Shown here: positions 23,212-48,651 of the stretch, in pieces
Position numbering within the stretch: position 1 is the first letter of the stretch
How the letters are laid out: the number at the start of each line of letters is the position of its first letter
NCBI GenBank assembly: GCA_004298155.1
Contig: SCRD01000024.1
Location: forward strand, 310,001-374,000
Length of the DNA stretch: 64,000 nucleotides
Origin: Acidobacteriota bacterium
GTDB taxonomy: Bacteria; Acidobacteriota; Terriglobia; UBA7540
Direction of reading: 5' to 3'
The notes under the pieces: model-generated
Database searches by the model: none
Seen by the model: the letters and a program-made list of their open reading frames with translations, nothing else
Told to the model about the DNA's origin: nothing
Translations under genes and position numbers: made by a program

Positions 23212-23580
23212 ATGAAACAACGAACCATCAAGGTCCTACCTATGATGTTGGGAGCGATCTTTCTTGCCGCCTTCCCGGTGTTCGGCAACCCGCAAGGATC
23301 CAAAATGAGCGTCAAGGGAGAAGTGGTCGATTTGTGGTGTTACTCCCAGGAGGGCGCGCACGGACCTGCGCACAGGCAATGTGGCATGACCTGCGCAAGG
23401 TTAGGAAATCCCATCGGGATAGTCGATGCTGAAGGTAACATCTACGTCGCCATGGGAGCGAAAGACCACCAGCCGGGACGTGCGCTTTTGCTGGATAAAA
23501 TGTCTCAAACCGTCACGGTTACCGGCACGCTGGTGGAGAAAGGTGGCTTGAAGCTTCTCTACATTAGCACTGTCAAGTAA
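23212..23580 (+). CDS. Small secreted cysteine-containing protein
   Basis: A 122-residue protein with a strong ribosome site (AAAGGAGAG) and a signal peptide (about 1-25). The mature part shows VKGEVVDLWCYSQEGAHGPAHRQCGMTCARLGNPIGIVD followed by a beta-rich tail (VTVTGTLVEKGGLKLLYIS). The WCY and CGMTC cysteines and histidines suggest metal or haem binding, but I do not recognise a characterised family. It probably belongs to the transcription unit of the RND pump. Confidence 0.7.
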   Translation: MKQRTIKVLPMMLGAIFLAAFPVFGNPQGSKMSVKGEVVDLWCYSQEGAHGPAHRQCGMTCARLGNPIGIVDAEGNIYVAMGAKDHQPGRALLLDKMSQTVTVTGTLVEKGGLKLLYISTVK

Positions 23581-23724: not shown

Positions 23725-24720
23725 ATGAAACGAAAACTGTTTTTGTCCGCTGTTGTTTTTGGGCTTTGTTGCATTGCGCCGCGATATGCAGCCGCGGCAC
23801 AGCCATTACGTTTGGTAGCGACGATCCCGCTCAATAACGTCAAAGGCCGCATCGACCATTTTGGTATCGATTTGAAAGGCAAACGCCTCTTTATGTCGGC
23901 CCTGGGCAACGACACCGTCGAGGTTTTCGACCTGCGGGCGAACAAACGGCTGCACACCATCATCGGACTTCATGAGCCGCAGGGGACCACCTACGCCCCG
24001 GATGTAAACAAGCTCTATGTGGCGAACGCGGATGACGGCACGGTACGCATCTTCGACGGAACGACGTACAGACTGCTTCGCGTGCTCCATTTCTCGTCTG
24101 ACGCGGACGATACTCGCTACGACGCCGAGAGCCGCCGCGTGTATGTGGGCTACGGCGACGGCGCGGTCGCCGCCATAGATACCACGGACGACAAAGTGCT
24201 TGGCGAATTCAAGGTTGCGGCCCATCCCGAAGCCTATGAAGTGGAAAAAGGTGGCGAAAAGATATTCATCAACGTTCCGAACGCGCATGAAATTGCCGTC
24301 GCCGACTGGAGCCGGAAGGAAGTCGTGGCGCGCTGGCGGCTCGGGCAATATTCGGCGAACTTCCCGATGGCTTTGGACCCTGGAGACCATCGGCTGTTTG
24401 TGGTCACCCGGCGGCCCGCGCAATTTCTTGTTTTTGACAGCAACTCAGGGAAAATGATCGCCCATGTCGCCGCAGTAGGCGACGCGGATGACATTTGGTA
24501 CGACACCCAATACCACCGCATTTATATCACTGTTGGCGAGGGTTTCATCAGCGTCCTCGCGCAACGCGACGCCGATCATTACGAGCCCATCGCAAAAATT
24601 CCCACGGCTTCCGGTGCTCGCACGTCGTTCTTCTCGCCGGAGCTTGGCCGGCTGTACGTCGCCGTGCCGCGTCGCGGCAATCAGCGAGCCGAACTACGCG
24701 TCTGTGCAACAGCGCCATGA
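23725..24720 (+). CDS. Secreted YncE-like beta-propeller protein
   Basis: ATG 23725 sits behind AAGGAGG; 331 residues with a signal peptide ending AAAAQ. Six or seven repeats of about 42 residues are visible, each with a KRLFMSALGNDTVEVFDLRA- or NKLYVANADDGTVRIFDG-like strand pattern typical of seven-bladed YVTN/YncE propellers. Such proteins act in the periplasm as ligand-binding scaffolds; the ligand is unknown. It sits between the small Cys protein and two DUF1259 genes. Confidence 0.8.
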   Translation: MKRKLFLSAVVFGLCCIAPRYAAAAQPLRLVATIPLNNVKGRIDHFGIDLKGKRLFMSALGNDTVEVFDLRANKRLHTIIGLHEPQGTTYAPDVNKLYVANADDGTVRIFDGTTYRLLRVLHFSSDADDTRYDAESRRVYVGYGDGAVAAIDTTDDKVLGEFKVAAHPEAYEVEKGGEKIFINVPNAHEIAVADWSRKEVVARWRLGQYSANFPMALDPGDHRLFVVTRRPAQFLVFDSNSGKMIAHVAAVGDADDIWYDTQYHRIYITVGEGFISVLAQRDADHYEPIAKIPTASGARTSFFSPELGRLYVAVPRRGNQRAELRVCATAP

Positions 24721-24760
24721 GGTTTCGAATGTGAACCAAACACTCATAAGGAGGAATTCC

Positions 24761-25636
24761 ATGAAAGCACCACAAATCGCTTTACTCGCCATCGCTCTGC
24801 TCATTCCGGCGGTGGTTCATGCTCAAGGGATTGATGCGACAAAACTCGAGATGGTCCTCGGCAGGCCTGGCCAGAAAATCGGCGAGATCGTCAAATTTGG
24901 CTTCCCGCGTACCGATCTTCACGTGTCCGTCCACGGCGTGGTCGTCAAGCCCGGGCTGGCGTTAGGCTCATGGGCTGCCTTTTCTGGAACCGACGACAAC
25001 GCCAGAGTCATGGGAGACCTTGTCTTACTGCAAGACGAAGTGAACCCAGTAATGATGCGCCTTAGATCCAGCGGCTTTGAAATCACCGCAGTCCACAATC
25101 ACCTTCTCGATGAGACTCCGCGCGTCATGTATATGCACTATATGGGGAAAGGCCGGGCGGAAGACCTGGCCAAATCCCTCAAGAATGCGTTATCAGCCTC
25201 AGAGACCCCGCTCGGGAGGCCGGCTCCGGCCGCCAAGGTCACTTCCCCGCCAGCATTTGTGGAGGAGGTGGAAGGCGTTCTGGGACGCAAGGGTAGCTTC
25301 AGCGGCGGCGTTCTTGCCTTTGGGATTCCCAGGCGGGATCCCGTAACCATGGGAGGCATGACGATACCCCCAGCGATGGGAGTGGCGGAAGCCATCAATT
25401 TTCAAGCGGCAGGCCCTAGCCGAGTCGCGACGACGGGTGATTTTGTTCTGAATTCAGAAGAAGTCAATCCTGTGATTTCAGCCCTCCAGGATCACAACAT
25501 TCTGGTGACCGCCCTTCACACCCATATGCTCGACGAGCAACCGCGATTGTTTTTTATGCATTTCTGGGCAGTTGGAAGTCCTCAATCGGTATCCAACGGA
25601 ATCAAAGCTGCATTACAGAGGATCTCGATCAAGTGA
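24761..25636 (+). CDS. Secreted DUF1259 protein (LppY/LpqO family), copy 1
   Basis: ATG 24761 follows AAGGAGG and gives 291 residues with a signal peptide ending VVHAQ. The protein contains two tandem DUF1259 units: residues about 25-145 and 160-291. Each has a LGSWAAFSGTDDNARVMGDLVLLQDEVNPVM-type core and a later TAVHNHLLDETPRVMYMHYMGKG-type His-rich motif (second copy TALHTHMLDEQPRLFFMHFW). The repeated H-x-H and H-F/Y motifs look like metal-binding sites, but the family has no established function. Confidence 0.82.
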   Translation: MKAPQIALLAIALLIPAVVHAQGIDATKLEMVLGRPGQKIGEIVKFGFPRTDLHVSVHGVVVKPGLALGSWAAFSGTDDNARVMGDLVLLQDEVNPVMMRLRSSGFEITAVHNHLLDETPRVMYMHYMGKGRAEDLAKSLKNALSASETPLGRPAPAAKVTSPPAFVEEVEGVLGRKGSFSGGVLAFGIPRRDPVTMGGMTIPPAMGVAEAINFQAAGPSRVATTGDFVLNSEEVNPVISALQDHNILVTALHTHMLDEQPRLFFMHFWAVGSPQSVSNGIKAALQRISIK

Positions 25637-25797
25637 CGGCTGAACGGCTGTCAATCCTTGGCAACCATGATGGCATTAAGAATCTGAGTGCCGAAGTGAA
25701 CTTAGTTCGCAGCGCTTGCCGTCCGCCCTTTCACGAAGTCAAATGCCGGGCGAGCGAGGCGCGCCAGGGTCGGCCAAATACCAGACCGTAACGGTAG

Positions 25798-26712
25798 ATG
25801 GATGAAAAAATGAAATTAACGAGCTTCACACTCCTATTCGTCATGGTTTGCATCCCCTCTTCCCTTAAGGCGATGATCACACCGACCGAGCGGCACAAAA
25901 TCGATACTGAACTCGGAATTACGGGGACGTATGTTCAGACTGAAGACACATACAAGTTCAGCTTTCTTGGTATTGCCGCGAAGCTTATGGTCCACGGGCG
26001 GGAGGTCGGCCAGCTTGGAAGCGTTGAGTCCTCGGCAGCCTTCATTGGCGATCCGCATCACGGAGGTTGCCTACTGGTAGCAGAGCTTGCCCTTTTAGAG
26101 GATGAGGTGAATCCGGTTCTTTCAACAGCTCTCGATAACGGGCTCACGATTACAAGCCTTGGGAACGACTATCTCTTCGAGCAGCCCAGGATTCTGTTCA
26201 TGGAGGTTTCCGGATTGGGGGAGCCGACTGACCTTGCGAAAAAACTCAGCCAAGTTCGGGAAATCATTGGTGCGATTCGTGTGGCTCATTCCTCCCGCAG
26301 AAATGAACTTCGGAGCAGAACAGTTCCACGCCAGAATCATCTCAACGCTTCTGATCTGGATTCGATCCTAATGACTCAGGGGAGAGTTGTGCACGGCGTC
26401 TACCAGGCGTCGATGGGGATGGCTGGGACGATATTTGGAGTACCTGCCGGAAAACAGATGGGCCTTAGAACTTGGGTCATGTTCGCTGGAACTGATGAGA
26501 ATGCGATCGTCAAAGGCCAAATCATCATGACTGCGAACCAAGTTCGCAACGTACTTCGGGCACTGCGCAAGGGGGGCATCTACGTCACCGCGCTGCACAA
26601 TCACTTCATTGATTCGAATCCTGATTTTTACTTTGTCCATTTCTGGGGGAAGGGGCCGGCGCGAGATCTGGCGCTGACCGTTCGGAATGCAATGGAAACG
26701 CAAATGAGGTGA
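25798..26712 (+). CDS. Secreted DUF1259 protein, copy 2
   Basis: A paralogue of the preceding gene: 304 residues from ATG 25798, or 300 from ATG 25810. It has a signal peptide (FTLLFVMVCIPSSLKA) and two DUF1259 units. The second is well conserved (RTWVMFAGTDENAIVKGQIIMTANQV, then TALHNHFIDSNPDFYFVHFWGKGPA). The first is more divergent and lost the H-x-H pair (TSLGNDYLFEQPRILFMEVSG), so it may have lost binding. The pair probably arose by tandem duplication with later divergence. Confidence 0.8.
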   Translation: MDEKMKLTSFTLLFVMVCIPSSLKAMITPTERHKIDTELGITGTYVQTEDTYKFSFLGIAAKLMVHGREVGQLGSVESSAAFIGDPHHGGCLLVAELALLEDEVNPVLSTALDNGLTITSLGNDYLFEQPRILFMEVSGLGEPTDLAKKLSQVREIIGAIRVAHSSRRNELRSRTVPRQNHLNASDLDSILMTQGRVVHGVYQASMGMAGTIFGVPAGKQMGLRTWVMFAGTDENAIVKGQIIMTANQVRNVLRALRKGGIYVTALHNHFIDSNPDFYFVHFWGKGPARDLALTVRNAMETQMR

Positions 26713-26965: not shown

Positions 26966-27487
26966 TTAATTCAACGGCAGGGATGTTTCGACCGTCAAAG
27001 TTGGATGGGATCCGCCGTGACCCTCGATGACTTTGCCCGTCACTTGGATTTTCTTGCCTACAAGGTTGACTTGCTTTTTCAGCGAGGCTTCTTCCGGTCC
27101 TCCGGCAAGAACGAAGGGGCGCTTCAAACCCGGCACGTCCAATTCCAAAGTTCCGTTGCTGGCCGCAAGCGTTCCGTCCACAACAACCTCGACTTCCGTC
27201 GCTGTAAAACCCGCATCGTGAATTGCTTTGGGAATCAGGGCTGGATCGAACGATCTTCCAGCCTTCGGGAAAACCGTTCCCTCACCCTTCACCAGATTCA
27301 CATCAGCATGACGAACGCCATCCAGGCGTTCGAGGGCCTTCTGGGCCCCTTTCGCTCAAAGCCCTCATATCATGCCGTTGATCTTGACAGTCGCCTTCAC
27401 AACTTGTGCCGAAGAAGGCACCGTCGCAACAAGGCTTGCCAATCCAAGTAAAATCAAAATCCCATGTTTTGCAATCGTCACACGCAT
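26966..27487 (-). CDS. MerP-like heavy-metal-associated protein, probable selenoprotein with UxxU metal site
   Basis: From ATG 27487 (GGAGG site) to TAA 26966 the frame is open except for two TGA codons at 27365-27367 and 27356-27358. Reading both as selenocysteine gives 173 residues: a signal peptide (about 1-28, ending SSAQ), then an HMA domain KINGM-I-U-G-L-U with Sec41 and Sec44, followed by AKGAQKALERLDGVRHADVN, DPALIPKAIHDAGF and a second beta-rich domain of about 75 residues. The cysteine paralogue in the window, merTP, reads QGMDCTAC at the same place. Role inferred: periplasmic capture of Hg(II) or another soft metal by two selenols. Two strong hairpins follow the TGAs. The second domain after the HMA fold is unusual for MerP. 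Annotation pipelines would call only a truncated 111-residue piece. Confidence 0.87.
27312..27332 (-). promoter_or_regulatory. Candidate SECIS hairpin of the UxxU metal-binding gene
   Basis: On the minus strand, an uninterrupted 8-bp stem (CGAACGCC with GGCGUUCG) closes the loop UGGAU, with G at the second and third loop positions. The loop lies 31 nt after the second UGA. A second GC-rich hairpin (GGGGCC, CAGAA loop, GGCCCU; 27333-27349) lies between and puts its loop 21 nt after the first UGA. Together they could serve both codons. Confidence 0.72.
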
Positions 27488-27558
27488 TTCAATGCCTCCA
27501 GTCGATATATTTCTTCTCCATTCTTCATATCATTTGGAACGTTCGTCGCCCCGAAACA

Positions 27559-28527
27559 TTAAAACAGCCATCGAAAACCGAGCAGAAACCGCGAATCTGG
27601 CCGTGGCTGGATTCCATTCAAATCCTTCGCCACCGGGATCGGCGCCGAAAACTCGACGAGAAACTCCCGGTTCACAAAATATTGAATGCCCGGCGAAACG
27701 TAGAGTGTCGTCCCCCCGCTGTTGGGAACATCACCGCTCCCGCGTACGAACGCATGAGCCTGGGATGTACCGTTGAGTTCAACCATGGCAAAAGCGCCAT
27801 TCCGGAAAACGCGATCAAAAGTCCGCCGCAACCAGCTAGCGTTCGCCGGCGTCTGCTCCCGTGGAATGATGAAGTAAGCCGGCGCCACGTCATAGCTGGC
27901 TGAGTTTCCCTGCGATATTCCCACTTCATTTTCACTGGCTACCATATATTCAAAATCAGCGATCAACGAGTACCTGAGCTTTGACATTTTTTGAAACACT
28001 AGCCCTCCCGTATACGCGAAAGCATCGGTTGAAAATCGCTCCGCTCCGGTTGGGGCTTGAACACCAAAAAGCCCCGAGAGCCGCGTCAGGCCCCCGGGCG
28101 CATTCCGGCTGTACAGGCCGTCGTACTGAATAATGAATTGCGAATCTCCCAAGCCATTCAAATCCGTCCGCATGCTTTGACTTCCCGTGTGAGTCGTATT
28201 GTCCACCGTGACGTAAGGCTGGACAGCAATCACCTGCCACTTGGGGGCGAAGGCGTAAACGAACGCCAGCGGCGTAATGTACTGGGAAATACCCACCGTC
28301 CTGCCATCCGGCGTTCGCAGCGTCAGATGGCGGGCCTCAACAAAGGAACGAATCAGGCTCGCCCGATTGAAGAGTGTACGGCCGCCGGGCGCAATGATCG
28401 CCTGCGCACGCAAGGGGAGAGGCGCCAGAACAACTAAGGTCAGAAGGGACAATGCGAAGAGCAAGCTCCGCTTTAGTTGCCCTCGGTGGAGCGCACTTCG
28501 TGGAGTTTCAATCAGTTTTAGCGCCAC
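27559..28527 (-). CDS. Outer-membrane beta-barrel protein (MetA-pathway-type transporter-like)
   Basis: The frame is open to 28635, but I prefer GTG 28527: GGAAGG precedes it and it lies 4 nt after the stop of the CU membrane-protein gene. This gives 322 residues with a signal peptide ending PLRAQA. The mature part alternates hydrophobic strands (FVYAFAPKWQVIAVQPYVTV, SQFIIQYDGLYSRN, RYSLIADFEYMVAS) and ends RFLLGFRWLF with a terminal Phe, as in the phenol-degradation MetA-type outer-membrane family. It may provide outer-membrane passage for the metal handled by this operon; direction and substrate are unknown. Confidence 0.78.
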   Translation of the reverse strand: MALKLIETPRSALHRGQLKRSLLFALSLLTLVVLAPLPLRAQAIIAPGGRTLFNRASLIRSFVEARHLTLRTPDGRTVGISQYITPLAFVYAFAPKWQVIAVQPYVTVDNTTHTGSQSMRTDLNGLGDSQFIIQYDGLYSRNAPGGLTRLSGLFGVQAPTGAERFSTDAFAYTGGLVFQKMSKLRYSLIADFEYMVASENEVGISQGNSASYDVAPAYFIIPREQTPANASWLRRTFDRVFRNGAFAMVELNGTSQAHAFVRGSGDVPNSGGTTLYVSPGIQYFVNREFLVEFSAPIPVAKDLNGIQPRPDSRFLLGFRWLF

Positions 28528-28531
28528 CAAA

Positions 28532-28804
28532 TTACAACCCTTCCGTACCATAACGAGACCACCAGTCCCGTATTGATAAGAAGAATCCATTTCGATAGGG
28601 GGCCGCATGATGCCACCAAGCGCGATAATGGGCATAAAGGAGCAGCCCCGCCGAGAACAGAAAGAGGGCCGGCATCAACCAGCCGACGACCCACCGGGCC
28701 GTTGCCGCCCCGCCGACAGAAAGCGTGGACAGCACTGCCGGTAGTATTCAACACCAAGGGAGCGATAACAAAAGAGATCCGAAGCCAATTCTACGGAACT
28801 GCAT
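28532..28804 (-). CDS. MerT-like small membrane protein, probable selenoprotein with Cys-Sec pair
   Basis: ATG 28804 follows GAGGTGAGAG, 42 nt after the upstream MerT-like gene. The frame to TAA 28532 has one TGA at 28748-28750; read as Sec it gives 90 residues with Cys18-Sec19: SLPWC-U-ILPAVLSTLSVGG. The cysteine protein encoded by merTP reads ASLCCILPAAAAALG at the same position, so the TGA replaces the second Cys of the MerT CC motif. Two membrane segments (about 5-27 and 38-58) and a basic, Trp-rich tail follow. Role inferred: inner-membrane passage of Hg(II) or a soft metal received from the UxxU protein. It has fewer membrane segments than classical MerT (three). The alternative, a pseudogene, is disfavoured by the SECIS-like fold and intact operon spacing. 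Confidence 0.85.
28713..28741 (-). promoter_or_regulatory. Candidate SECIS of the CU membrane-protein gene
   Basis: On the minus strand, 6 nt after the UGA, CCGGCAG pairs with CUGUCGG (7 bp including one G-U). An internal bulge (U against UUU) is followed by a 2-3 bp upper stem and an apical loop beginning UG, about 16-17 nt after the UGA. A bulged U below a small G-containing loop resembles the fdhF-type element. It is weaker than the other two candidates. Confidence 0.6.
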
Positions 28805-28846
28805 TTCTGCTCTCACCTCTTTACCGGTTGCCCGGCTTTCGCATGC

Positions 28847-29332
28847 CTAATGGTTGAAATACCCATGGACTTTCATCCATCCGATTCCCCAGAAGTTCAT
28901 GACCAGCGCGAGTCCGTAAAGAGACAAGGAAAGCCAAAGGATCCGGCGATTCCAGCGCGTTGCGGTCGAGCAGGCGCTTTCCCGGCCGCTCGCTGGAATT
29001 TCACAGGCTTCCCCCTGGAGTCTGGTTTGGCGGAAATAGGCGAAGTAAAACCCCAGTGCGAGTAGCGCTCCGCACAGCGGGAAAAGCCAGATGTCATATG
29101 CGCCGAAGTTCTGCCATCCGGGAATCGCAGTAAAAAACGCGAGAACGCTTGTCAGGCTGAGTCCGAGCAGCACCAGCAAAGCGGGAAGAGCGCAGCAAAA
29201 CAGCGTGGCCAGCGCTGTAAAAAGGGTGGCGTACGCCGAGAACATTTCTCTCGCCGAGCTACGCGGAGGCCCAGCCGGGGCGCCTGGCGCCTGTTGTCGG
29301 GATACGTTATCCTCCGTTTGCAGTTGGTTCAT
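28847..29332 (-). CDS. MerT-like mercuric transport membrane protein
   Basis: I chose ATG 29332 because GGAGGT lies just upstream; 161 residues. After a hydrophilic N-terminus of about 25 residues, ALATLFCCALPALLVLLGLS carries the CC motif in the first membrane segment, as in MerT. A second segment precedes the loop RLQGEACEIPASGRESAC, which has the cytoplasmic cysteine pair typical of MerT, then RWNRRILWLSLSLYG starts the last segment. It passes Hg(II) through the inner membrane. It is the second gene of the operon driven from 29582-29613 and precedes the CU protein, so cysteine and selenocysteine versions are made together. Confidence 0.75.
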   Translation of the reverse strand: MNQLQTEDNVSRQQAPGAPAGPPRSSAREMFSAYATLFTALATLFCCALPALLVLLGLSLTSVLAFFTAIPGWQNFGAYDIWLFPLCGALLALGFYFAYFRQTRLQGEACEIPASGRESACSTATRWNRRILWLSLSLYGLALVMNFWGIGWMKVHGYFNH

Positions 29333-29417
29333 ATCCACCTCCGTTCCATGGGGTGCAACCGGGAGATCTGTAGCGGGAAACGCAGGGGCGGTTTGAAGGA
29401 CCGCCCCCGCCCGTTGA

Positions 29418-29561
29418 TTACTTTTTCACCATTTCCTTGCCGCAGCAACAGCGTGGATTCTGGTTGCCACCCTTGCCCGGTGCGGCGCTCTTCGTCACCG
29501 CGACTTCGCAACCGCATTCCGGATCAGGGCAGCGGTAAACTTCACCTTGTTGAAATGCCAT
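29418..29561 (-). CDS. Small cysteine-rich metal-binding protein
   Basis: A 47-residue protein from ATG 29561 with a GGAGG site. Cysteines are arranged C-x4-C-x-C (YRCPDPECGC) and CCC (NPRCCCGKEM), six in all, a zinc-ribbon or metallothionein-like pattern. It is the first gene after the MerR-type promoter and so is probably metal-induced; a cytoplasmic metal buffer is the likely role. Too short for most gene callers. I do not recognise a named family. Confidence 0.7.
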   Translation of the reverse strand: MAFQQGEVYRCPDPECGCEVAVTKSAAPGKGGNQNPRCCCGKEMVKK

Positions 29562-29581
29562 GTTTGCCTCCTTTCAAAACC

Positions 29582-29613
29582 AACTTACACCCTATACTCA
29601 GGCATAGAGTCAA
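29582..29613 (-). promoter_or_regulatory. MerR-type promoter/operator of the selenoprotein mercury operon
   Basis: On the minus strand: -35 TTGACT, a 20-bp spacer, and -10 TAAGTT. The spacer carries the dyad CTAT-n8-ATAG. Over-long spacers of 19-20 bp with a central dyad are the hallmark of MerR-family activated promoters. Transcription would start about 14 nt upstream of the small Cys-rich gene. Confidence 0.72.
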
Positions 29614-29883: not shown

Positions 29884-30357
29884 TCACAACGGCAGCCGTC
29901 GGCGGTACGCTTTCTCTTGCGGCTGGCGTTTCTGTTTATCCTTCGTCCCGCCATCGCGCATAGTGTTTTCGATTAAGGAGCAGAAAGCGTTTGCGGAAAG
30001 CTGTTGTTGGCCCGACCGCTTCCATTGCCTAATCGCACGACGAAGCTCATCGCGAAACCTGGAGAGTTGCTGGATCTGTCGCTCGACGGCCTCCAAATGT
30101 TGCTCGGCAAGAACGAGCACGCTGCCGCACGGGCACTGGCCCCGTTCCCGCATTCGGAGGATTTCCCGGATTTCCTCGAGCGAGAAACCGAGGCCCTTGG
30201 CATGTCGGATAAAAAGCAGTCGCTTCAAATCTCGTTCGCCATAGACTCGGTAGCCGGACTCCTTGCGGCCCGGCTCGGGAAGAAGGCCTTGGCGCTCATA
30301 GAAGCGGACGGTCTGAACAGAAACGCCGCCCTTCTTTGCTACCTCTCCAATCTGCAT
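29884..30357 (-). CDS. MerR family metal-responsive regulator 1
   Basis: A 157-residue regulator: the winged-helix DNA-binding part is MQIGEVAKKGGVSVQTVRFYERQGLL, followed by the wing (ESGYRVYGERDLKRLLFIRHAKGLGFSLEEI), a long dimerisation helix, and cysteines at 75, 77 (GQCPCG) and 126 (FC). MerR uses Cys82, Cys117 and Cys126 for Hg(II); here the middle ligand is missing and an extra Cys77 is present, so the metal site differs. It lies upstream of the selenoprotein operon and probably controls 29582-29613 and its own promoter. Confidence 0.85.
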   Translation of the reverse strand: MQIGEVAKKGGVSVQTVRFYERQGLLPEPGRKESGYRVYGERDLKRLLFIRHAKGLGFSLEEIREILRMRERGQCPCGSVLVLAEQHLEAVERQIQQLSRFRDELRRAIRQWKRSGQQQLSANAFCSLIENTMRDGGTKDKQKRQPQEKAYRRRLPL

Positions 30358-30364
30358 AGGTCAG

Positions 30365-30396
30365 AAGGTACACCTTGCATGCAAGTATAGAGTCAA
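30365..30396 (-). promoter_or_regulatory. MerR-type promoter/operator upstream of regulator 1
   Basis: On the minus strand: -35 TTGACT, a 20-bp spacer containing the perfect 12-bp palindrome CTTGCATGCAAG (30374-30385), and -10 TACCTT. The -10 ends 8 nt before the regulator's ATG, so the transcript would be leaderless or almost so. The first 10 bases (TTGACTCTAT) are identical to the operon promoter at 29582-29613, supporting a shared regulator. Confidence 0.65.
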
Positions 30397-31369: not shown

Positions 31370-32800
31370 TCATTCTGCGCAGCAGGAAAGCTTCTCTGGG
31401 TCCTTATGTCTTGAAATCGCAGCGATCTTCAGGGCTTCTGCCATTGTGGGGTAGACGTGCAAGAGGTCGATGAAGTCCTGAATCTTGGCGCGGAAGCGCA
31501 GCGCCATGGCAGCCTCGTGTATGACTTCGCCCGCGTTTGCGCCAACCATGGAGACGCCCAACACCTCTTCGGTTTTGTCGTCAGCCACCATTTTGATGAT
31601 GCCGCGCGTATCGCGTATAGCTCCGGCACGCGGTACCAGCGACATCGGAATCGTGTTGCACCAGCAAGGGTGACCAGTTTTCAAGGCCTGCTCCTCAGTG
31701 AGGCCCACGATCCCGATTTGAGGGTCGGTGAAAATCGCGCGGGGAATGACATGATGATTCACGCGCCGCGGCGAATCCCCGGATAAGGCGTTGTGTGCGG
31801 CAATCCCTCCGTCTTGGCTGCCCACAGGCGTGGCCATCTGACTGTCGGTTTCGAGGCCGATGACATCGCCGGCGGCAAGAATATGCGGGACATTTGTGCG
31901 CAGGTGTTCATCCACTTTGATTTCGCCGTTTGGGCCTCTTTGCACACCAGCGCGCTCAATGGCGATGTGATCCGAGTTTGGGCGACGGCCTGTGGCAACC
32001 AGCAGCTTTTCAGCTCGAAACTCGCGTTCTGAATCACTGACCGAGGCAGTAACTACGGCTTGTCCATTTGTTTGGCGGACCCGCTGTATCGACGCTCGCG
32101 TCACCACGTTGATCCCTTCGGACTCGAATATTTTTCCGATCTCTTGTCCCACTTCGGGCTCGTAGCCACGGGCGAGTAACTGTTCATTGCGCTCCAGAAT
32201 GGTGACTTTACTTCCAAAGCGCCGGAACATCTGCCCCAACTCCAATGCGATGTATCCGCCGCCAATGATAACCAACGATTCTGGCAACTCAGTTAGCTCC
32301 ACCACCTCATCGGCGGTGAGCAGATCGCTGGTGATGTATGGCACCTCATCCAGGCCTTCGATTTCGGGTGTAAGAGGGCGCGAGCCGGTGGCGATAAGGA
32401 CTTTTTCGCCGGTGAGCCGTTTCCCGTCGACCTCTACAGTATGTGCATCGACAAATTGAACGTGCCCTTTTTTTATGCTGATCCGGCCTTCAACCAAGCT
32501 CTCGTACTTTTTCTTTCGATAGCTGTGGATGACTTCATCTTTCTGTTGGACTAGGGCTCGAAAGTCTACGCCCATCTTTGCAGGCGTAAGGCCCGGGTAG
32601 CGAGGATGAGCGGTCTCATAAACGATCCGCGCAGCTTCGATGAGATTCTTGGAAGGAAGGCAGCCGCGATTCGCACAGGTTCCGCCGACGATCCGTGCTT
32701 CAGTCATCACGGCCGTCTTGCCCAACTCTGCTGCGCGTAAGGCCGCCGCAAATGCGGTCGAACCAGACCCTAAGATGAGAAGATCAAATTGTTCTGCCAA
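31370..32800 (-). CDS. merA: Mercuric reductase
   Basis: The frame is open to 32917 but FAD-domain similarity starts at [20 protein letters not shown] therefore prefer the TTG at 32800 behind GGGAG, giving 476 residues. The redox pair is [14 protein letters not shown] (as in MerA GTCVNVGCVPSK), with an NADPH domain ([17 protein letters not shown]), AAGDVIG, and the C-terminal Cys pair KLSCCAE that hands Hg(II) to the active site. It reduces Hg(II) to Hg(0) in the cytoplasm. The N-terminal MerP-like domain of many MerAs is absent; merTP may supply it. TGA stop. Confidence 0.9.
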
Positions 32801-32926
32801 GTGTGTTCTCCCAGTCCGAATTTTCGAGAAGGTACAGCGCTGGATTTGTATAACCAGCGGCCAGATACCACAAGACCTACCGTCACTCTCTACCGAGCCG
32901 ATCTCAAAACGCCGCACCGCGCCGGT

Positions 32927-33301
32927 TTACCTTGAAAGGGTTGGAGCAGATTTTCGACTCAGGAGGACATTGAGCACTCCGGCAAGGACGAGCCCTACGA
33001 TTGCAATATACGCGGCGAGCTTCACTGTGTGGACAAAAATAAAGAAAAAGGTGGCTATGGAGCTGATGCCACCCAGCAATAGCGCCCACGGTTGCCGGTG
33101 AACCCGGTATCCCAAAAACAGGCCGATCAAAGTCACGGCCAGGAAGACGATCATCAAGGGCAGCAAGATCGCGTCTTTGATGAGGAATCCCAGCCCGACG
33201 GCTGCGATGATCGACACTATGGCCGGTAATCCCAAACAGCACGCGGCAGCAACAAATGATCCGACGATACCAACCTTGTCGAGATGGTCTTTCCAGGGCA
33301 C
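32927..33301 (-). CDS. merC: MerC-like mercuric transport membrane protein
   Basis: A GTG start at 33301 behind GGGAGG gives 124 residues with four membrane segments. The first carries the vicinal cysteines FVAAACCLGLPAIVSIIAAVGLGFL, in the MerC position. It resembles the MerC family in length and topology; a MerF/MerT-like label is possible. It would move Hg(II) into the cytoplasm for MerA, encoded just downstream. Confidence 0.72.
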   Translation of the reverse strand: MPWKDHLDKVGIVGSFVAAACCLGLPAIVSIIAAVGLGFLIKDAILLPLMIVFLAVTLIGLFLGYRVHRQPWALLLGGISSIATFFFIFVHTVKLAAYIAIVGLVLAGVLNVLLSRKSAPTLSR

Positions 33302-33687: not shown

Positions 33688-34314
33688 TCAGTCTTTACCC
33701 TGGCGTGAGGTGACTTCCGCCTTATAGCCATCTTTCTCGATTGCTTTGACGAACGCCTGCGGTGTGACCTCGCGGGGATCGTAGTTAATGGTGGCTTCTT
33801 TCCTCTCGAAGCTGACCTTCGCTGTGCGAGCACCCGCTATCTGCGTCAGGTTCTTTTCGATCAGCGCGGCACAGGCTGTGCAGTCCATGCCTTGAATGGT
33901 TAGCACGGCGCGGGCCGCTGGCGCGTTGACCGGTTCCGCGGCGCTTGGCTCCCGGCCGAACGCGCGCACCAGAGCTCCGGAATAGTACGGAAACCCCGCA
34001 AGAACGATTACAAGACCTGCAACGAGCCATAGCGCTGCGCGGCTTGAACGCACAAACCGAGGCCGTTTGCACACGCTGTCGGAGTCGCATGCTTCGGCAT
34101 GGGGCCGGTACGTGAAGTAGTAGCCTACCCCGAGTAAGACAACCGTCAGCGCAAGCAAATACGGCCGCCAAGCGGCGAAAAACGCCGATGCCGCGAATCC
34201 AGCCACACCCAACGCGGCCGCCGCGGCCGGAAGAATGCAGCAGAGCGATGCTGCCACTGCCGCGCCGATTGCCCCCACCATCGTCCATCGAGACGTATTG
34301 TTTCCCCGGCTCAT
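33688..34314 (-). CDS. merTP: MerT-MerP fusion protein (mercuric ion transport)
   Basis: A 208-residue protein with a GGAGGATT site. The MerT half has three membrane segments, the CC motif ASLCCILPAAAAALG near residue 24, and a loop with further cysteines (CDSDSVC). The C-terminal half, from about residue 137, is an HMA domain (LTIQGMDCTACAALIEKNL, then DPREVTPQAFVKAIEKDGY). It captures Hg(II) and passes it through the inner membrane. It is the first gene of the conventional mer operon and the cysteine reference for the two probable selenoproteins at 28.8 and 27.5 kb. Confidence 0.88.
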   Translation of the reverse strand: MSRGNNTSRWTMVGAIGAAVAASLCCILPAAAAALGVAGFAASAFFAAWRPYLLALTVVLLGVGYYFTYRPHAEACDSDSVCKRPRFVRSSRAALWLVAGLVIVLAGFPYYSGALVRAFGREPSAAEPVNAPAARAVLTIQGMDCTACAALIEKNLTQIAGARTAKVSFERKEATINYDPREVTPQAFVKAIEKDGYKAEVTSRQGKD

Positions 34315-34585: not shown

Positions 34586-35017
34586 TTAGCTCGAGCGGCC
34601 TAGCCTCACGAGCACGGGACAGCGTTCCTCACGGCTTCGTGAATGCCGCTTCAACTGCCGCTTGCATTGGGCGAGAACAGCCTTTAGGTCTTTCTCTATG
34701 GCTTCAAGCTCGCGGAGCTTGGCGCTCACGCTCGCGAGCTTCTCTTCGACGAGAGACTTGACGTGAGAGCAGACGCCCATGCGACGGTCTCTTAGAATCA
34801 GCAAATCCCGGATCTCTTTGAGCGAGAAGCCAAGTTCCTGAGCTTTCCGGATGAAGTGGAGTTGCTCGACAATTTCAGGCGAGTAGATGCGGTAGCCGGC
34901 ATTCGTCCGAGCCGCCCCCTGCAGCAGTCCTTCGGCTTCGTAAAATCGGATGGTGTGGACGCTCAAGCCTGTTTGTCTCGAAACCTCGCCAATGAATGCG
35001 CCTTGTATTGTTGCCAT
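34586..35017 (-). CDS. merR: Mercury-type MerR family regulator 2
   Basis: I chose ATG 35017 (AAAGGG site); the frame upstream runs through the promoter. 143 residues: DNA-binding head IGEVSRQTGLSVHTIRFYEAEGLL, then RKAQELGFSLKEIRDLL, a dimer helix, and cysteines at 83 (GVCSHV), 118 (LAQCKRQ) and 133 (EERCPV). These match the Hg(II) ligands Cys82, Cys117 and Cys126 of MerR in order, but the last spacing is longer (14 residues between, against 8). It probably activates the merTP operon and its own promoter. Confidence 0.83.
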   Translation of the reverse strand: MATIQGAFIGEVSRQTGLSVHTIRFYEAEGLLQGAARTNAGYRIYSPEIVEQLHFIRKAQELGFSLKEIRDLLILRDRRMGVCSHVKSLVEEKLASVSAKLRELEAIEKDLKAVLAQCKRQLKRHSRSREERCPVLVRLGRSS

Positions 35018-35041
35018 ACCCTTTCCCTCGCTCACACTGCA

Positions 35042-35073
35042 AGGATACACCCTCGAGTAAACTCAAAGGTCAA
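35042..35073 (-). promoter_or_regulatory. MerR-type promoter of regulator 2
   Basis: On the minus strand: -35 TTGACC, 20-bp spacer with the imperfect dyad CTTTGAG/CTCGAGG, -10 TATCCT. The layout closely resembles that of the ZntR-controlled zntA promoter (20-bp spacer, -10 TATCCT). Predicted start about 18 nt upstream of ATG 35017. Confidence 0.62.
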
Positions 35074-38142: not shown

Positions 38143-39312
38143 TTAATTCAAACGAGTTGCCTTATCACTTCGATCCTCTCCATTTCCAGTAGGGAACATT
38201 AAGGGAACAATTGGAAAAAGGAGCGAGGACACGCGCTCCATCGCCTCGCGTTTCACGTCTTCTAAGGGGTGGGTGTAAGCCATTGTGACTCGCGCCGTTG
38301 TGTGCCCGAGCAAAGATTGCAGAACGGGCAACGGCGCGCCCTGATTCCCTTGGAGAGTCGAAAACGTGTGGCGAAGTGAGTGCCAGGAAAATCGCAGGCC
38401 GAGGCGATCGCAGACGGGCTTGACGGAACGATTGAACAGATTGCGATCGTCCCACGGAGTCCCAGAGGAATTGGAAAACAACCACGATGAGGCGCTTTGT
38501 CTCAGACCCAGAAAGTTACGGAGATAGGCAAGCACTTCTTGTGGCAGAGGAATACGTCTGGCGCTTCCCTGCGTCTTGGGTGAACCAACCTCACCGCGAG
38601 AAACGGTCCTCCGAACGTGAAGGGTTGCAGAATCGAAGTCAACATCTCCGACCTGCAATCCCAGGAGCTCTCCAATGCGTAACCCTGTCGTCGCCCCGAG
38701 TAGGACAATCGTGCTAGCCTGCTCGGACAAAGCGCCGACTAGGGTTTTGATCTGCTCAGGCGATAACAAGTTTGGAGTGCGAACTCGCTGCATTGGAGGG
38801 AGCATCACTCCACGGGCTGGATTCGCCTCGACCCAACCCCACTGGAGTGCCACGCCGAACATCTTTCCTAGCGTGCTCCGAATGTGGCGAAGGGTTTGAG
38901 TCGAGTAATTCTCCTGCTGTTTGGCCGCGATCAATCGTTGGATATGATGGCGGCCGAGGTCGCGAAGCATCAATTGGCCGAGAGAGGGTTCGATGTGTTT
39001 TGTGAACATGAGCTTATACAGTCGAACGGTATTTGGCTTAAGCATCGGCAGAATGTCGGTCTGAAAATGCGATTCCCAGAATTGCTTCAAGGTCATATAG
39101 ACACGGGTTGAACCCGTGCCGTTGTTGACCTTCCGCAAATGGGCTTCTGCCGCGCGCCGTGCTTCGCGTGCGCTTGAAAATCCGCCCAACGTTAACGCGC
39201 GATTGGCTGTCCGCAATTGGTGATCCGCGGAAAGCACTTTCTCGCGGTAACGAAGGACCCATACTTTCCCTTTCTTGAAAACACAACCTTTTTGGTAACG
39301 ACGTCGAGCCAT
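38143..39312 (-). CDS. Tyrosine recombinase (integrase)
   Basis: ATG 39312 follows AAGGAGA; 389 residues. An N-terminal AP2-like/arm-binding part (RRYQKGCVFKKGKVWVLRYREK) is followed by the SAM-like core-binding domain (about 85-185) and the catalytic domain, with Arg in GATTGLRIGELLGL, His-x-x-Arg in SWHSLRHTFSTLQ and the nucleophilic Tyr in RVTMAYTHP. It catalyses integration and excision at the tRNA 3' end located 10 nt beyond its stop codon. Confidence 0.92.
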   Translation of the reverse strand: MARRRYQKGCVFKKGKVWVLRYREKVLSADHQLRTANRALTLGGFSSAREARRAAEAHLRKVNNGTGSTRVYMTLKQFWESHFQTDILPMLKPNTVRLYKLMFTKHIEPSLGQLMLRDLGRHHIQRLIAAKQQENYSTQTLRHIRSTLGKMFGVALQWGWVEANPARGVMLPPMQRVRTPNLLSPEQIKTLVGALSEQASTIVLLGATTGLRIGELLGLQVGDVDFDSATLHVRRTVSRGEVGSPKTQGSARRIPLPQEVLAYLRNFLGLRQSASSWLFSNSSGTPWDDRNLFNRSVKPVCDRLGLRFSWHSLRHTFSTLQGNQGAPLPVLQSLLGHTTARVTMAYTHPLEDVKREAMERVSSLLFPIVPLMFPTGNGEDRSDKATRLN

Positions 39313-39382
39313 ACGAGAAATCTCCTTTCTCTCGTTGGCTCGCTCGCCATGTCTTCGGTCGGCGATTAGTTTAACCGCTTGC

Positions 39383-39634
39383 TTAGGCACGGCGCAATGT
39401 CTCCAGATAGGCTTGGACATCGGAATAGCGGAAACGGACGTACTTCCCCATCTTCAAGTGGGGTATGCGGCTGATACCGCGCCGTCGGGTTCTCTCGTAA
39501 ATCCAAGACGCAGGCACGCTCAACCGGTCCGCCAGTTCACGAACTGTAAGAAGCTTCTCGGGTTCGGTACGCACATCGCTCGTGTGTGCTGGGACTTCGA
39601 CGCTGTCCTCGGTCATGAAAAAAGGTGATGGCAT
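39383..39634 (-). CDS. Excisionase-like helix-turn-helix protein
   Basis: An 83-residue protein whose C-terminal 55 residues are an HTH_17/MerR-like winged helix: LLTVRELADRLSVPASWIYERTRRRGISRIPHLKMGKYVRFRYSDVQAYLE. ATG 39634 has a GGGGG site; Met7 is an alternative start. Placed 70 nt upstream of the integrase gene and transcribed with it, it is probably the recombination directionality factor. Confidence 0.8.
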   Translation of the reverse strand: MPSPFFMTEDSVEVPAHTSDVRTEPEKLLTVRELADRLSVPASWIYERTRRRGISRIPHLKMGKYVRFRYSDVQAYLETLRRA

Positions 39635-39704
39635 CTACTTACCCCCGATGAGGACGTATCAATAATTTCTGTTCGAACCGCGGCTATTCGAACCGTGGCC
39701 ATTC

Positions 39705-40169
39705 CTAAGGTTGGAAAATCTCGCCGCAGTGTTGGCACATGAAGGAGTTGTTCCAGAGTTCGCATCGGCGTGGAAGGACCATGTGGTTGAATCTCCAGAG
39801 GACAGCGAGTATGAGAACGAGGAGGGCGGAGAATCCGTAAGTAAACCAGTGAGTTTGACTCAAAGTGTGAGGATCGAGTCGGGCAGTCGGCGCATTGATG
39901 ACGAGGATGAACCAATTGCCTATGGCCAGCCCAATGAACCAGGCAATAATCACGTGCCGATATCGTTTCTTGTGGGTCGGTGCAGCTAGCTTTGAAAGCT
40001 GAGTCTGCGAAGTCCCGGCGGCCTTTGAGCTGCCGAAACCCAAAAGCAGCCCGCCATCGCCGAGCGCCAATCCATGACCTCGCGAGCGGGTTTTGACATC
40101 CGACAATCCTGCTGCATGGACAAGCGAGAGTTTGACTGCATCTTCTGACTTGCATTTTGGGCATTGCAT
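39705..40169 (-). CDS. Zinc-ribbon membrane protein of unknown function
   Basis: ATG 40169 has an AAAGGAGG site; 154 residues. MQCPKCKSEDAVKLS starts with a C-x2-C knuckle, and the C-terminus has CQHCGEIF with a second one, so both ends could close a zinc ribbon. Two membrane segments (about 75-95 and 112-132) lie between. The N-terminal part is rich in Gly/Leu (GLALGDGGLLLGFG). Element cargo; function unknown. Confidence 0.65.
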   Translation of the reverse strand: MQCPKCKSEDAVKLSLVHAAGLSDVKTRSRGHGLALGDGGLLLGFGSSKAAGTSQTQLSKLAAPTHKKRYRHVIIAWFIGLAIGNWFILVINAPTARLDPHTLSQTHWFTYGFSALLVLILAVLWRFNHMVLPRRCELWNNSFMCQHCGEIFQP

Positions 40170-40183
40170 TTTGCTTGCCTCCT

Positions 40184-40846
40184 TTACCAAAGGCCCGGAA
40201 AGAGCCGATAGCGAACCCTCATCATGTAGGCGGGATATCCGGGCAGTTCTTCTCTGAGGAACCGGTCTTCGCGGAAGGTGCGCCTCAGAATAATGATAGA
40301 GCAAAGAACACCAGGGACTAGCGCGGCGTAGGAGCCAAGCGCAATCGCACTGCCAGGCACGCTGAAGAACATGGCGGCGTAACCCGGATGGCGCACGAAG
40401 CGGTATGGGCCATGACTTATGACGTGATGCCCGCGCTCGCTTTGCAGCCGTACAGCGCTTGAAAAGTAAGGGTTAACTGCCATCGCCCATGTTATAAGGC
40501 CCAATAAAACCGCCACGACAGTAAGAGCTGTGACCTGGGTCGCGCCTTCTATGCCCTGCGTCCAGTGGGACCTGCCAATATCGAGGGTGGCGGCGGCTAC
40601 GGTTGCAAAGAAGAGGATGCCAATTCCCTTACCGCCGATCGGGTCTAAGCCGGACTCACCGGGGATAGCCCGTTCTTGCAGGAGTTCGGGGTCAACAACG
40701 ATGCTGGCAACAAGCGTGATCGCTGCGTACATCGCAAGATAAGCCCGGAGCATCGGAAGCTCAATTCTCCCGGCGCAGAGGAATGCCAAGACTGCAAGTG
40801 CGATATTCACAAAAAGCCATCGTAGTAACGGTTTTGTGCGAGTCAT
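40184..40846 (-). CDS. Isoprenylcysteine carboxyl methyltransferase-family membrane protein
   Basis: The protein has 220 residues with five hydrophobic segments. The conserved C-terminal block HGPYRFVRHPGYAAMFF and EDRFLREELPGYPAYMMRVRYRLFPGLW is the ICMT/PEMT S-adenosylmethionine-binding signature. In bacteria such proteins methylate lipids or small molecules; the substrate is unknown. It overlaps the primase gene by 4 nt. It is unusual cargo inside a conjugation operon. Confidence 0.82.
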   Translation of the reverse strand: MTRTKPLLRWLFVNIALAVLAFLCAGRIELPMLRAYLAMYAAITLVASIVVDPELLQERAIPGESGLDPIGGKGIGILFFATVAAATLDIGRSHWTQGIEGATQVTALTVVAVLLGLITWAMAVNPYFSSAVRLQSERGHHVISHGPYRFVRHPGYAAMFFSVPGSAIALGSYAALVPGVLCSIIILRRTFREDRFLREELPGYPAYMMRVRYRLFPGLW

Positions 40847-41886
40847 GGTGTTATCCTAAGCCCCAGTTTCTGGGAAGCCTGCCCCTGAGAAGGCGCTTCC
40901 GAATTCTGGTGTTGCCTTGATCTGGCAACTTGCTCAATGGCACGCTGGACTGTCCTTTTCGCATATTCCTCTCCATTTTCTGAAGAATGGGGAGGATACG
41001 CACTTATGGCGCGCGCAACCTCTTGAGGGTTCTCGCCATGCGAGATTTTGAAGAAGGCGTAAGCCCGCGTCACTGTGAGTCGTGCGTAATATTGCGGATT
41101 TGGTTTGTCGTCGCGATAATCGGCAACCTTCTGTATGAGAACCGGAAGGGTTTCGCCGCGCTCAAGCCTGCGCATTACCCACGCCCAATCGTTCTCCGAG
41201 GGGGTGCGTTGATGAGTTGCGCCGCGTTCCGCATTTGCCTTCTGCGATGAAGCGGGGTTCAATTCCTGTCCGGTCCCAAGCGCAACCTTGAAATCCGATT
41301 GCTGGTAGGTTTGACAGCTATGTTGCCAAGCATCGATCCGATGACCCTTCTCGTATTTCTTGTTGAAGAAGCCGGGAAGCCGGAGAACTCGGGTTGAGTC
41401 AGTTGCGGCGTGATCACCGCCAAATTCCCGAACCATCGCCCGCATCAGGTTCTCGGATTCCGCCTGCTTCATCCCTTGAACTTTCCAAATCACCTGGTAT
41501 TTGCCGGGCGACGTGTTGATTACAAAATTGGGCGTGGGCACGTTGGGGCTTGCTTTGATCTTTGCAAGGGCTTGTTCACCATCGCGGTCGAGGTCGAGAT
41601 AAACGTGGCGGATCGTTTTTATGTCCGCCTTCGTCCGTCCGTCTGCGTCCTGGTTTAAGACATTTTGCGAAATGTAGATGTCGGACCCTTGGGCATTTTT
41701 GTGGCGAAGCCACCCCTGAAATCTTGTAGCGATAGCCTCAGCCGTGGCGATTCGTTGGATGGTTTCAGCTTGTTGACGGTTAAGAACGACGAGTGCCAGG
41801 CGGTCGGTGGGTTCGTAGTTCGCCTTGATGTATTGCTCGGGTGTCAAGGCGTAAGGGTCTGCGGGATTTTGTTCTAGTTGTGGCAT
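40843..41886 (-). CDS. RepB-like DNA primase
   Basis: A 347-residue protein. The region about 85-185 (DIKTIRHVYLDLDRDGEQALAKIKAS, NFVINTSPGKYQVIWKV, GGDHAATDSTRVLRLPGFFNKK) has the acidic catalytic pair and lariat-like fold of archaeo-eukaryotic RepB/PrimPol-type primases. The C-terminal part (NDWAWVMRRLERGE...) is helical and resembles the primase C-terminal accessory region. It could prime the complementary strand after transfer. It overlaps virB11 by 13 nt and the methyltransferase gene by 4 nt. Confidence 0.8.
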   Translation of the reverse strand: MPQLEQNPADPYALTPEQYIKANYEPTDRLALVVLNRQQAETIQRIATAEAIATRFQGWLRHKNAQGSDIYISQNVLNQDADGRTKADIKTIRHVYLDLDRDGEQALAKIKASPNVPTPNFVINTSPGKYQVIWKVQGMKQAESENLMRAMVREFGGDHAATDSTRVLRLPGFFNKKYEKGHRIDAWQHSCQTYQQSDFKVALGTGQELNPASSQKANAERGATHQRTPSENDWAWVMRRLERGETLPVLIQKVADYRDDKPNPQYYARLTVTRAYAFFKISHGENPQEVARAISAYPPHSSENGEEYAKRTVQRAIEQVARSRQHQNSEAPSQGQASQKLGLRITP

Positions 41887-45613: not shown

Positions 45614-45617
45614 AGCT

Positions 45618-47666: not shown

Positions 47667-48054
47667 GTTCAATTTCCTTTCTGGGGTGATCCCCGGAAGC
47701 CGCCTCGTCGAGGCGCAACTTTGCGGCCCTGGAGTAGGCATACCGAAGAAGCTCGATGGCCTCTTTGTACTTAGCGTTCTGTGCGCGGTCCACGATCTCC
47801 TGGGCTTTTTGCGTGGTGATTCTGCCGTCGCGCCCGAGAATACAAAGGAGGTCAATGAGGATGGCCTGGGTCGCTGTAATCTCCGCCATGATTCCAAACT
47901 GGAAAGGCGACGGCGTAGCCCCGGAAATCAGTGCGAGCAAGGCATCGCGGCACCAAGTCGCGATTGGCTTTCCAGCGCGGGCGGCGATTGATTCAAGTCG
48001 CTCGTAATCGGATTCGGTGAACTTTGAAGTGACGCCTCGTGTCAGCTTGCGCAT
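47656..48054 (-). CDS. MobC-like relaxosome accessory protein
   Basis: A 132-residue protein beginning MRKLTRGVTSKFTESDYERLESIAARAGKPIATWCRDALLAL, the ribbon-helix-helix pattern of MobC/TraY-type accessory factors. A second helical part (ILIDLLCILGRDGRITTQKAQEIVDRAQNAKYKEAIELL) may be a dimer or coupling-protein contact. It directly precedes virD4 and follows the repeated dyads at 48104-48211, a probable binding region. Confidence 0.75.
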   Translation of the reverse strand: MRKLTRGVTSKFTESDYERLESIAARAGKPIATWCRDALLALISGATPSPFQFGIMAEITATQAILIDLLCILGRDGRITTQKAQEIVDRAQNAKYKEAIELLRYAYSRAAKLRLDEAASGDHPRKEIEHDR

Positions 48055-48103
48055 GGTTTCACCTGCTGCTTTGCCCCCCGTCTAACCGATTGGTGCGACA
48101 ACA

Positions 48104-48211
48104 GTTCTCTGGAGAATCCGAAGGATTCTCGCGGGAATCCGGACGCAGCGATTATTAGGGTAATTGCCGCGTGTTGATGGGGTTCCCCTGGGAATCCGCA
48201 GGATTCCCCGC
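48104..48211. repeat. Two related 30-bp dyad elements, candidate oriT or RHH operator
   Basis: Copy 1 (48104-48133) and copy 2 (48182-48211) are direct repeats 78 bp apart. Each contains three alternating half-sites, TTCYC - GRGAATCC - GGATTCYC, forming perfect hairpins: GAGAATCC/GGATTCTC (48112-48130) and GGGAATCC/GGATTCCC (48190-48208). The variable base changes together in all three half-sites (T/A/T in copy 1, C/G/C in copy 2), which preserves the symmetry. A further lone half-site GGGAATCC lies at 48133-48140. Location between two RHH-protein genes and near the relaxase suits oriT or an autoregulatory operator. Confidence 0.65.
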
Positions 48212-48640: not shown

Positions 48641-48651
48641 AAATGATTCTC

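Follow-up and report, generated by a model that had tools for sequence, protein, structure and literature searches.

A candidate selenocysteine-based metal operon next to a conventional mer operon in an acidobacterial genome

The DNA analyzed here, a stretch of 64,000 nucleotides (nt) called the window below, covers positions 310,001 to 374,000 of contig SCRD01000024.1 in assembly GCA_004298155.1 of an Acidobacteriota bacterium (Terriglobia; UBA7540), and at window positions 26966 to 29613 it contains a five-gene operon that encodes two predicted selenoproteins. On balance, and with modest confidence, we read this operon as a selenocysteine (Sec)-based cell-envelope module for the handling of a soft metal, with Hg(II) as the most likely candidate. 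We favor this reading because the operon has three conserved TGA codons, a predicted UxxU motif (U being Sec) on an HMA/MerP fold, a beta-barrel partner, a MerR-type promoter and an adjacent mer operon. The Sec reading of the three TGAs is strongly supported, and the conserved core of the system is the barrel protein together with the two-domain HMA protein, often accompanied by an NHL propeller, the other parts being optional.

Results

Layout of the operon and its copies in the same genome

The genome that contains the window (G000; 5.2 Mb in 29 contigs) carries on another contig, C8, the complete operon once more, though with its barrel gene broken (C8a), and a third, partial set of its genes (C8b). 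The parts of the window operon are as follows.

29583 to 29613, minus strand: MerR-type promoter, TTGACT (29613-29608), a 19-nt spacer and GTAAGT (29588-29583), read from the sequence and aligned with the C8 copy
29418 to 29561, minus strand: 47-residue Cys-rich, metallothionein-like protein (the mini-protein), an open reading frame (ORF) that matches the NCBIfam MymT model below its cut-off (E 6.5e-6) and has a 72% copy on C8
28847 to 29332, minus strand: CC protein, a MerT-like membrane protein, assigned on weak MerT matches and on relatives in other loci
28532 to 28804, minus strand: CU protein, a MerT/MerC-like predicted selenoprotein with the motif PWCU and a TGA at 28750-28748
27559 to 28527, minus strand: outer-membrane-type beta-barrel protein of a PF13557-like family, a Pfam match at the level of the family and not of the window member
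26966 to 27487, minus strand: two-domain HMA (MerP-like) predicted selenoprotein (the carrier) with the motif GMIUGLUAKG and TGAs at 27367-27365 and 27358-27356

The original prediction had placed a promoter and these five genes on one strand, and all of them are present as described, the promoter running from 29613 to 29583. A 19-nt spacer is the spacing of MerR-type promoters, and TTGACT-N19 also occurs in the aligned C8 copy and in the element that heads the locus of a second genome, G331; the pattern used in our promoter-element scan misses the window element itself. It had further been pointed out that none of these genes ends in TGA. This is correct for the five window genes, which end in TAA or TAG, but it is not a rule of the system, since TGA terminates the C8 copies of the mini-protein, CC and carrier genes as well as the carrier genes of G331, G361, G490 and G272. 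The lack of TGA terminators is therefore ruled out as a signature of the operon. Genome-wide reassignment of TGA is likewise ruled out, because TGA ends 40 of the 69 ORFs of at least 200 residues in five loci of this genome.

The C8 copies lie in a metal island of about 35 kb. Besides the second operon copy and the third set with its UxxC carrier, the island has two more MerA relatives (43%), copies of MerC and P-type ATPases, the latter as read from the sequence by eye, and six TTGACT promoter-like elements of the MerR type that match the scan pattern, a number not weighed against chance.

Conservation of the TGA codons

If both of its TGAs are read through, the carrier frame is open from 27487 to the TAA at 26966 and gives GMIUGLUAKGAQKAL. 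We searched a phylum sample of 396 genomes with this protein, placing X at the TGA codons, and obtained nine matches in six genomes at an E-value of 1e-12; among 39 genomes of its own GTDB family it was found in one, the genome under study, in three copies. Eight of the nine matches span the motif, the ninth being a contig-end fragment from G272 without the motif region, and both positions are TGA in seven of these eight and TGA plus TGC in one C8 copy. A profile built from the eight copies matched 9 of the 396 genomes at 1e-22 and added G566, G462 and G461. UxxU with two TGAs is present in eight genomes (the window and C8a copies, G331, G361, G314, G490, G272, G344 and G492, of which the G344 and G492 copies were found beside barrel genes), UxxC in C8b and G566, and CxxC in six genomes (a second G566 copy, G462, G370, G461, G553 and G455). 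The two carrier copies of G566 share one locus, have the motifs GLAUPFC and GLSCPFC and are 60% identical. Nine genomes bear at least one Sec form (G000, G331, G361, G314, G490, G272, G344, G492 and G566).

The CU protein contains a single TGA, in PWCUILP, and PWCU with TGA is kept in all three of its copies: that of the window, C8a (66% identical to the window copy in the alignment) and G566 (40% to C8a). A profile of the three matches only those copies in the 396 genomes at 1e-7, which puts the gene in 2 of 396. Each of the three loci with CU also has a carrier that contains one Sec or more.

In the eight aligned carrier genes, further in-frame stops occur at the C-terminal end only, as two TGAs at the end of the G490 stretch and a third TGA in G361 that is its terminator. 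We compared the rates of nonsynonymous (dN) and synonymous (dS) substitution in six pairs of copies, before and after the TGAs. Among these 12 comparisons dS was saturated in four, and dN was below dS in all eight with a finite dS. For the window and C8a, dN and dS were 0.24 and 0.76 upstream of the TGAs and 0.23 and 1.48 downstream; for the window and G331 they were 0.36 and 1.48 before and 0.38 and 1.46 after. Since dN is below dS on both sides, translation appears to run through the TGAs.

Two other TGA-containing HMA genes were seen. At L031:6017-6289 of G331, about 2 kb from an operon of CC, barrel and UxxU genes, is an ordinary MerP-type HMA gene with GMTUDSC (UxxC). At L009:17239-17450, on C8, an HMA gene has a TGA near its start (MLKU...), opposite a Ser of its paralog when aligned by eye; this TGA is probably not Sec.

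Sec machinery

The genome under study contains a tRNA-Sec with anticodon UCA (68.4 bits) and SelB (368 bits). SelB alone discriminates little here, because 179 of the 250 genomes of our class sample exceed its cut-off; among the nine Sec-bearing genomes eight do so. The ninth, G344, gave no match to SelB and one of 523 bits to SelA, and SelA was found in five of the six genomes searched. A tRNA-Sec with UCA was detected in five of the six Sec-bearing genomes tested (G000, G331, G361, G314, G490 and G272). Scans of the 64-kb window itself gave no tRNA and, at gathering scores, no Rfam match. G370, which has a Cys-only pair, is SelB-negative and carries CxxC. It had been asked whether the operon is confined to genomes with Sec machinery, and we encountered no genome that retains the TGAs and lacks it. 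Together with the conservation of the TGAs in distant loci and the interchange of Sec and Cys in the same alignment columns, this supports the earlier assignment of Sec to all three codons.

Fold of the carrier

With U read as C, the carrier scores 41.8 bits against PF00403 (HMA; gathering score 24.8), curated NCBIfam cut-offs and Pfam gathering scores being used for family membership throughout. It reaches 34.3 bits against TIGR02052 (MerP), below the cut-off of 92.55, and the best NCBIfam score of its HMA domain, 48.5 bits for a CopZ model, is also below cut-off. An AlphaFold model made without an alignment shows residues 31-98 as an HMA fold, along with a second domain rich in beta structure, at a mean predicted local distance difference test score (pLDDT) of 67.5. 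The best Foldseek matches, to CopZ, copper ATPase domains and MerP 1afi, fall on the first domain, a few alignments that extend further (SOD1 copper chaperone, ATP7B) show root-mean-square deviations of 5-9, and a PDB profile search returned HMA proteins; neither Foldseek nor the PDB profile search gave a clear relative of the C-terminal domain. The predicted Sec pair falls exactly on the metal-binding CxxC of HMA domains. We infer both that TGA is read as Sec in this protein and that the protein is exported.

Only 2 of the 14 inner branches of an HMA-family tree have good support, so the number of switches between Sec and Cys is not countable. A scan of contigs of close relatives gave one HMA match, of 35%, in a Desulfovibrio metagenome-assembled genome. 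Neither the carrier nor the barrel protein had a match at 1e-5 in a plasmid collection, and a plasmid origin was rejected on that result.

The barrel protein as constant partner

The five genes had been put forward as a unit whose order might be conserved across genomes. We rejected this on the gene content of relatives, every absence holding for the queries used. Among 24 fetched stretches, the mini-protein turned up in none but the two full G000 copies, the search for it being limited to these stretches; only 2 of 396 genomes have CU, and the presence of CC and MerR varies from locus to locus. CC relatives are those of C8a (86%), G331 (68%), the third C8 set (39%), G566 (38%) and G370 (34%), so that CC proteins stand near a barrel-HMA pair in G000, G331, G566 and G370; relatives of the operon MerR were present in the stretches of G331, G361 (a short match), G314, G566 and G370.

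The proposed link of an outer-membrane-type protein to the UxxU protein, on the other hand, held up in every Sec-bearing carrier locus. A barrel gene adjoins the carrier gene or lies within 2 kb of it for all eight full carrier copies that were found independently of the barrel, and for 11 of 11 Sec-bearing loci when three found through the barrel are included; the third C8 copy has its nearest barrel of the window-barrel family 1.6 kb downstream. Conversely, a six-barrel profile matched 20 of 376 genomes at 1e-15, at least one barrel neighborhood was fetched for each of the 20, and an HMA gene of the carrier type lies beside the barrel in 14 (G000, G331, G361, G314, G490, G272, G344, G566, G462, G492, G370, G461, G553 and G455, the G455 barrel being seen by profile only). 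No HMA gene was found beside the barrel in G517, G476, G171, G254 and G439, and in G483 the contig ends there. Eight of the 14 clusters include an NHL-repeat protein (G361, G314, G490, G272, G344, G566, G461 and G553).

PF13557 (Phenol_MetA_deg) is matched by three of the six barrel members, at best with 2.5e-13, and not by the window member. The C-terminal residue is aromatic in four of the five complete members of the barrel alignment. This residue, the family and a signal-like N-terminus suggest an outer-membrane location.

Two further observations concern the surroundings of these loci. Window positions 23212-23577 encode a 122-residue protein that shows a conserved pattern of Cys and His, matches no Pfam family and has relatives in the barrel loci of G490, G462 and G314 and weaker ones in G272 (L060) and G254. 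At 24488-26712 two tandem genes for DUF1259-type proteins are convergent with the operon; PF07485 was recognized in the second protein, to which the first is 27% alike.

Neighboring mer operon and regulator

Upstream of the operon lie its regulator and a Cys-based mer operon.

29884 to 30357, minus strand: MerR-family regulator, nearest CadR (NCBIfam and Pfam scans, PDB profile comparison)
30366 to 30396, minus strand: TTGACT-N19-GTACCT element directly upstream of the MerR gene, from the promoter-element scan; possible autoregulation
31370 to 32839, minus strand: MerA, start uncertain (TIGR02053, 507 bits; cut-off 454)
32927 to 33301, minus strand: MerC (PF03203, 59.5 bits; gathering score 27.6)
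33688 to 34314, minus strand: MerT-MerP fusion with CxxC (PF02411 and PF00403 above their gathering scores)
34586 to 35050, minus strand: MerR-family regulator of the conventional operon (domain scan)

The neighboring operon is thus as real as had been claimed, with MerA, MerC, a MerT-MerP fusion and MerR, and the mercury context is further supported by mer-type genes near relatives of the carrier. Such genes occur in the fetched stretches of five carriers: the full operon in G000; relatives of MerC, MerT-MerP and MerA in G331; relatives of MerT-MerP and MerC in G361; MerT (PF02411, 82 bits) and an HMA protein in G344; and relatives of MerT and MerC with a distant MerA-type flavoprotein (29%) in G492. 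Within the operon, CC and CU match MerT and MerC models below curated cut-offs only. Against PF02411 (gathering score 32.9) CC scores 12.6 bits and the G566 CU 19.1, while the window CU has no match; the G566 CU also matches the MerT model NF033560 below cut-off (3.8e-9).

None of the 25 NCBIfam models listed for the operon MerR was matched above its cut-off; the mercury-specific TIGR02051 gave 111.3 bits against 150.85. The protein has a Cys opposite the first CadR Cys of the alignment and one more beyond the aligned part, and it lacks a Cys opposite the one that CadR has close to the end of the alignment; these CadR residues serve in metal binding. Three relatives of this regulator (66%, 63% and 42%) are encoded on the C8 island.

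Beside the two metal operons, at window positions 38143-56191, is a conjugative element with a tyrosine integrase, a TrwC relaxase, a TrwB coupling protein, TrbI and a VirB4-type ATPase of a type IV secretion system. These conjugative genes and the patchy distribution of the carrier (1 of 39 family genomes) suggest that the operon may have spread horizontally.

Discussion

A proposed path for the metal

Selenolates bind Hg(II) more tightly than thiolates. If the operon serves Hg(II), a metal-responsive MerR-family protein would turn it on, the metal, alone or in a complex, would pass the outer membrane by way of the barrel, and in the periplasm the exported UxxU domain would hold it more firmly than thiols could. 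A UxxU carrier might then capture Hg(II) at lower levels than a CxxC MerP. Release from UxxU would be slow unless the acceptor also offered a selenol, and the CU protein of the same operon would be a natural selenol acceptor. Ligand exchange, from selenol to selenol or thiol, would hand the metal to CU and CC, the MerT-like proteins of the inner membrane, from where it could reach the neighboring MerA, which would finish detoxification; the mini-protein may act as a cytosolic buffer. More tentatively, the operon could belong to a dedicated Sec-based trans-envelope metal system that is distinct from mer, with a core of barrel, NHL propeller and two-domain UxxU carrier, MerT-like C-U proteins as inner-membrane acceptors, and a relay from selenol to selenol.

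Evidence that weighs against a Sec-based mercury module

One feature relevant to Sec insertion was seen in the carrier gene.

27333 to 27349, minus strand: possible hairpin resembling a selenocysteine insertion sequence (SECIS), beginning 6 nt after the second TGA, 5 bp with a 7-nt loop, from pairing in the carrier alignment

At least four of its five pairs form in each of eight carrier copies, its cells are 95% paired and there is one compensatory pair. These pairings would fit a SECIS without being evidence that it is one. Several results count against our interpretation, and they begin with this element: its covariation is not above that of shuffled alignments (114 of 500 shuffles were as high), and of ten stretches folded only that of G331 was well below its shuffles (z -3.4), the window giving -1.9 and the remaining stretches values between -1.5 and +1.1. 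No shared fold was seen in two copies of the CU gene. With regard to the Sec machinery, a SelA search of G492, one of the six genomes so searched, gave none, and in G272 no tRNA-Sec was found, only serine tRNAs being matched. The genomes that bear CxxC are SelB-positive in five of six cases; since Cys copies thus occur mostly in SelB-positive genomes, Sec is an option and not a necessity. Other difficulties concern the operon itself. CU and the mini-protein are rare, and the window CU gene is frameshifted at its C-terminus: compared with C8a, 4 nt are absent after 28597, the last 20 or so codons are out of frame and the hydrophobic end INTGLVVSLWYGR sits in another frame. The C8a barrel is short of 193 nt in the alignment, with a frame change, so the lesions differ between the two copies, and each may be partly decaying or misassembled. 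The structure model of the barrel failed (pLDDT 35). Finally, the nearest solved structure to the operon MerR is CadR (5.7e-26), with 4ua1 at 2.1e-21 and mercuric MerR 5crl at 2.8e-20, and other metals are suggested by the module of G566, whose neighbors include CusB-type and RND efflux genes.

Alternative explanations

Export or sequestration, and soft metals other than mercury, are likely rivals of our interpretation, and the G566 locus fits them better; taken singly, we regard each as possible but doubtful. Under the former, UxxU and the barrel would keep a soft metal out of the cytoplasm, by periplasmic sequestration or outer-membrane efflux, independently of MerA. The constant partners of the carrier are indeed the barrel and the NHL propeller (of 20 barrel genomes, 14 have an HMA gene next to the barrel and 8 of these also NHL) and not MerT or MerA; in the stretches of 8-11 kb from G461, G553 and G462 our queries found the pair and no mer gene, and the efflux genes that adjoin the G566 locus would suit such a role. 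Five carriers nevertheless have mer-type genes in their stretches and several have a MerT-like CC or CU. The metal could also be Cu(I), Ag(I), Cd(II) or a selenium or tellurium species, as a CopZ model is the best, if sub-threshold, NCBIfam match of the HMA domain, CadR is the nearest relative of the regulator and the mini-protein resembles the copper metallothionein MymT below cut-off; mer-type genes close by in several genomes and partners of the MerT/MerC type speak for mercury instead.

That the UxxU protein is a redox enzyme working by diselenide or selenenylsulfide exchange, and not a metal carrier, seems to us improbable. According to PMC9312934, a redox function is assumed for most selenoprotein families of prokaryotes, but the fold here is HMA and not thioredoxin-like, with the motif placed exactly where HMA domains bind metal. 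Least probable is that the TGAs are ordinary stops, through pseudogenes, sequencing errors or a downstream start at 27301. The frameshifted window CU and the broken C8a barrel would agree with decay; the same TGAs nevertheless recur in independent genomes, other in-frame stops are C-terminal only, and purifying selection acts on both sides. We therefore rejected a stop or pseudogene reading on the conservation of the TGAs and the selection across them.

Relation to known systems and significance

Like MerP (TIGR02052; PDB 1afi and 1osd), the carrier has an HMA fold, a signal-like N-terminus and a mer neighborhood, but it has UxxU in place of CxxC and an added C-terminal beta domain. Another close family is NF041115 (UxxU_metal_bind), tabulated in the available part of PMC13188914, a 2026 review, as "Metal-binding protein (putative mercuric reductase)" with UxxU and two Sec. 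It shares with the carrier an HMA-type domain and two Sec in UxxU; its model has 74 positions and so lacks the C-terminal domain, the carrier scores 44 bits against its cut-off of 95 (five other two-domain copies score 31-53), and the account given in that part of the review mentions no barrel partner. NF045683, a MerT/CopZ fusion-like heavy metal transport selenoprotein, similarly has Sec in a MerT/HMA context but is a fused protein, against which the window protein scores 29 bits (cut-off 375). In the portions available, the Global Ocean Sampling (GOS) survey (PMC2398784) lists the selenoproteins "Mercuric transport protein MerP" and "Putative mercuric transport protein", the review lists PF02411 with C/SxxU, and PMC9312934 likewise has Sec-containing mercury-type proteins. 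The GOS and review families resemble the window proteins in being predicted Sec-containing MerP- and MerT-type proteins, but the MerT type of the review is C/SxxU whereas the window CU has adjacent C-U, and those portions mention no operon or outer-membrane partner. In the open-access library that we searched we found table entries only, and nothing that describes a two-domain UxxU carrier linked to a barrel and adjoined by a MerT-like protein with C-U. Sec-containing MerP- and MerT-like families are thus already in print; a barrel-linked UxxU operon with a C-U partner appears to be new. The review notes that what Sec-containing transporters do in metal detoxification has yet to be worked out.

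In the locus described here a mer operon and a regulator stand together with a barrel gene and the genes of two predicted selenoproteins. The affinity of selenium for mercury is a central theme of mercury toxicology, and the natural UxxU, UxxC and CxxC forms of one carrier make the contribution of Sec to metal binding directly testable. If a dedicated trans-envelope system of this kind exists, the Sec and Cys versions that lie side by side in the G566 locus would allow a direct comparison of how the two handle metal.

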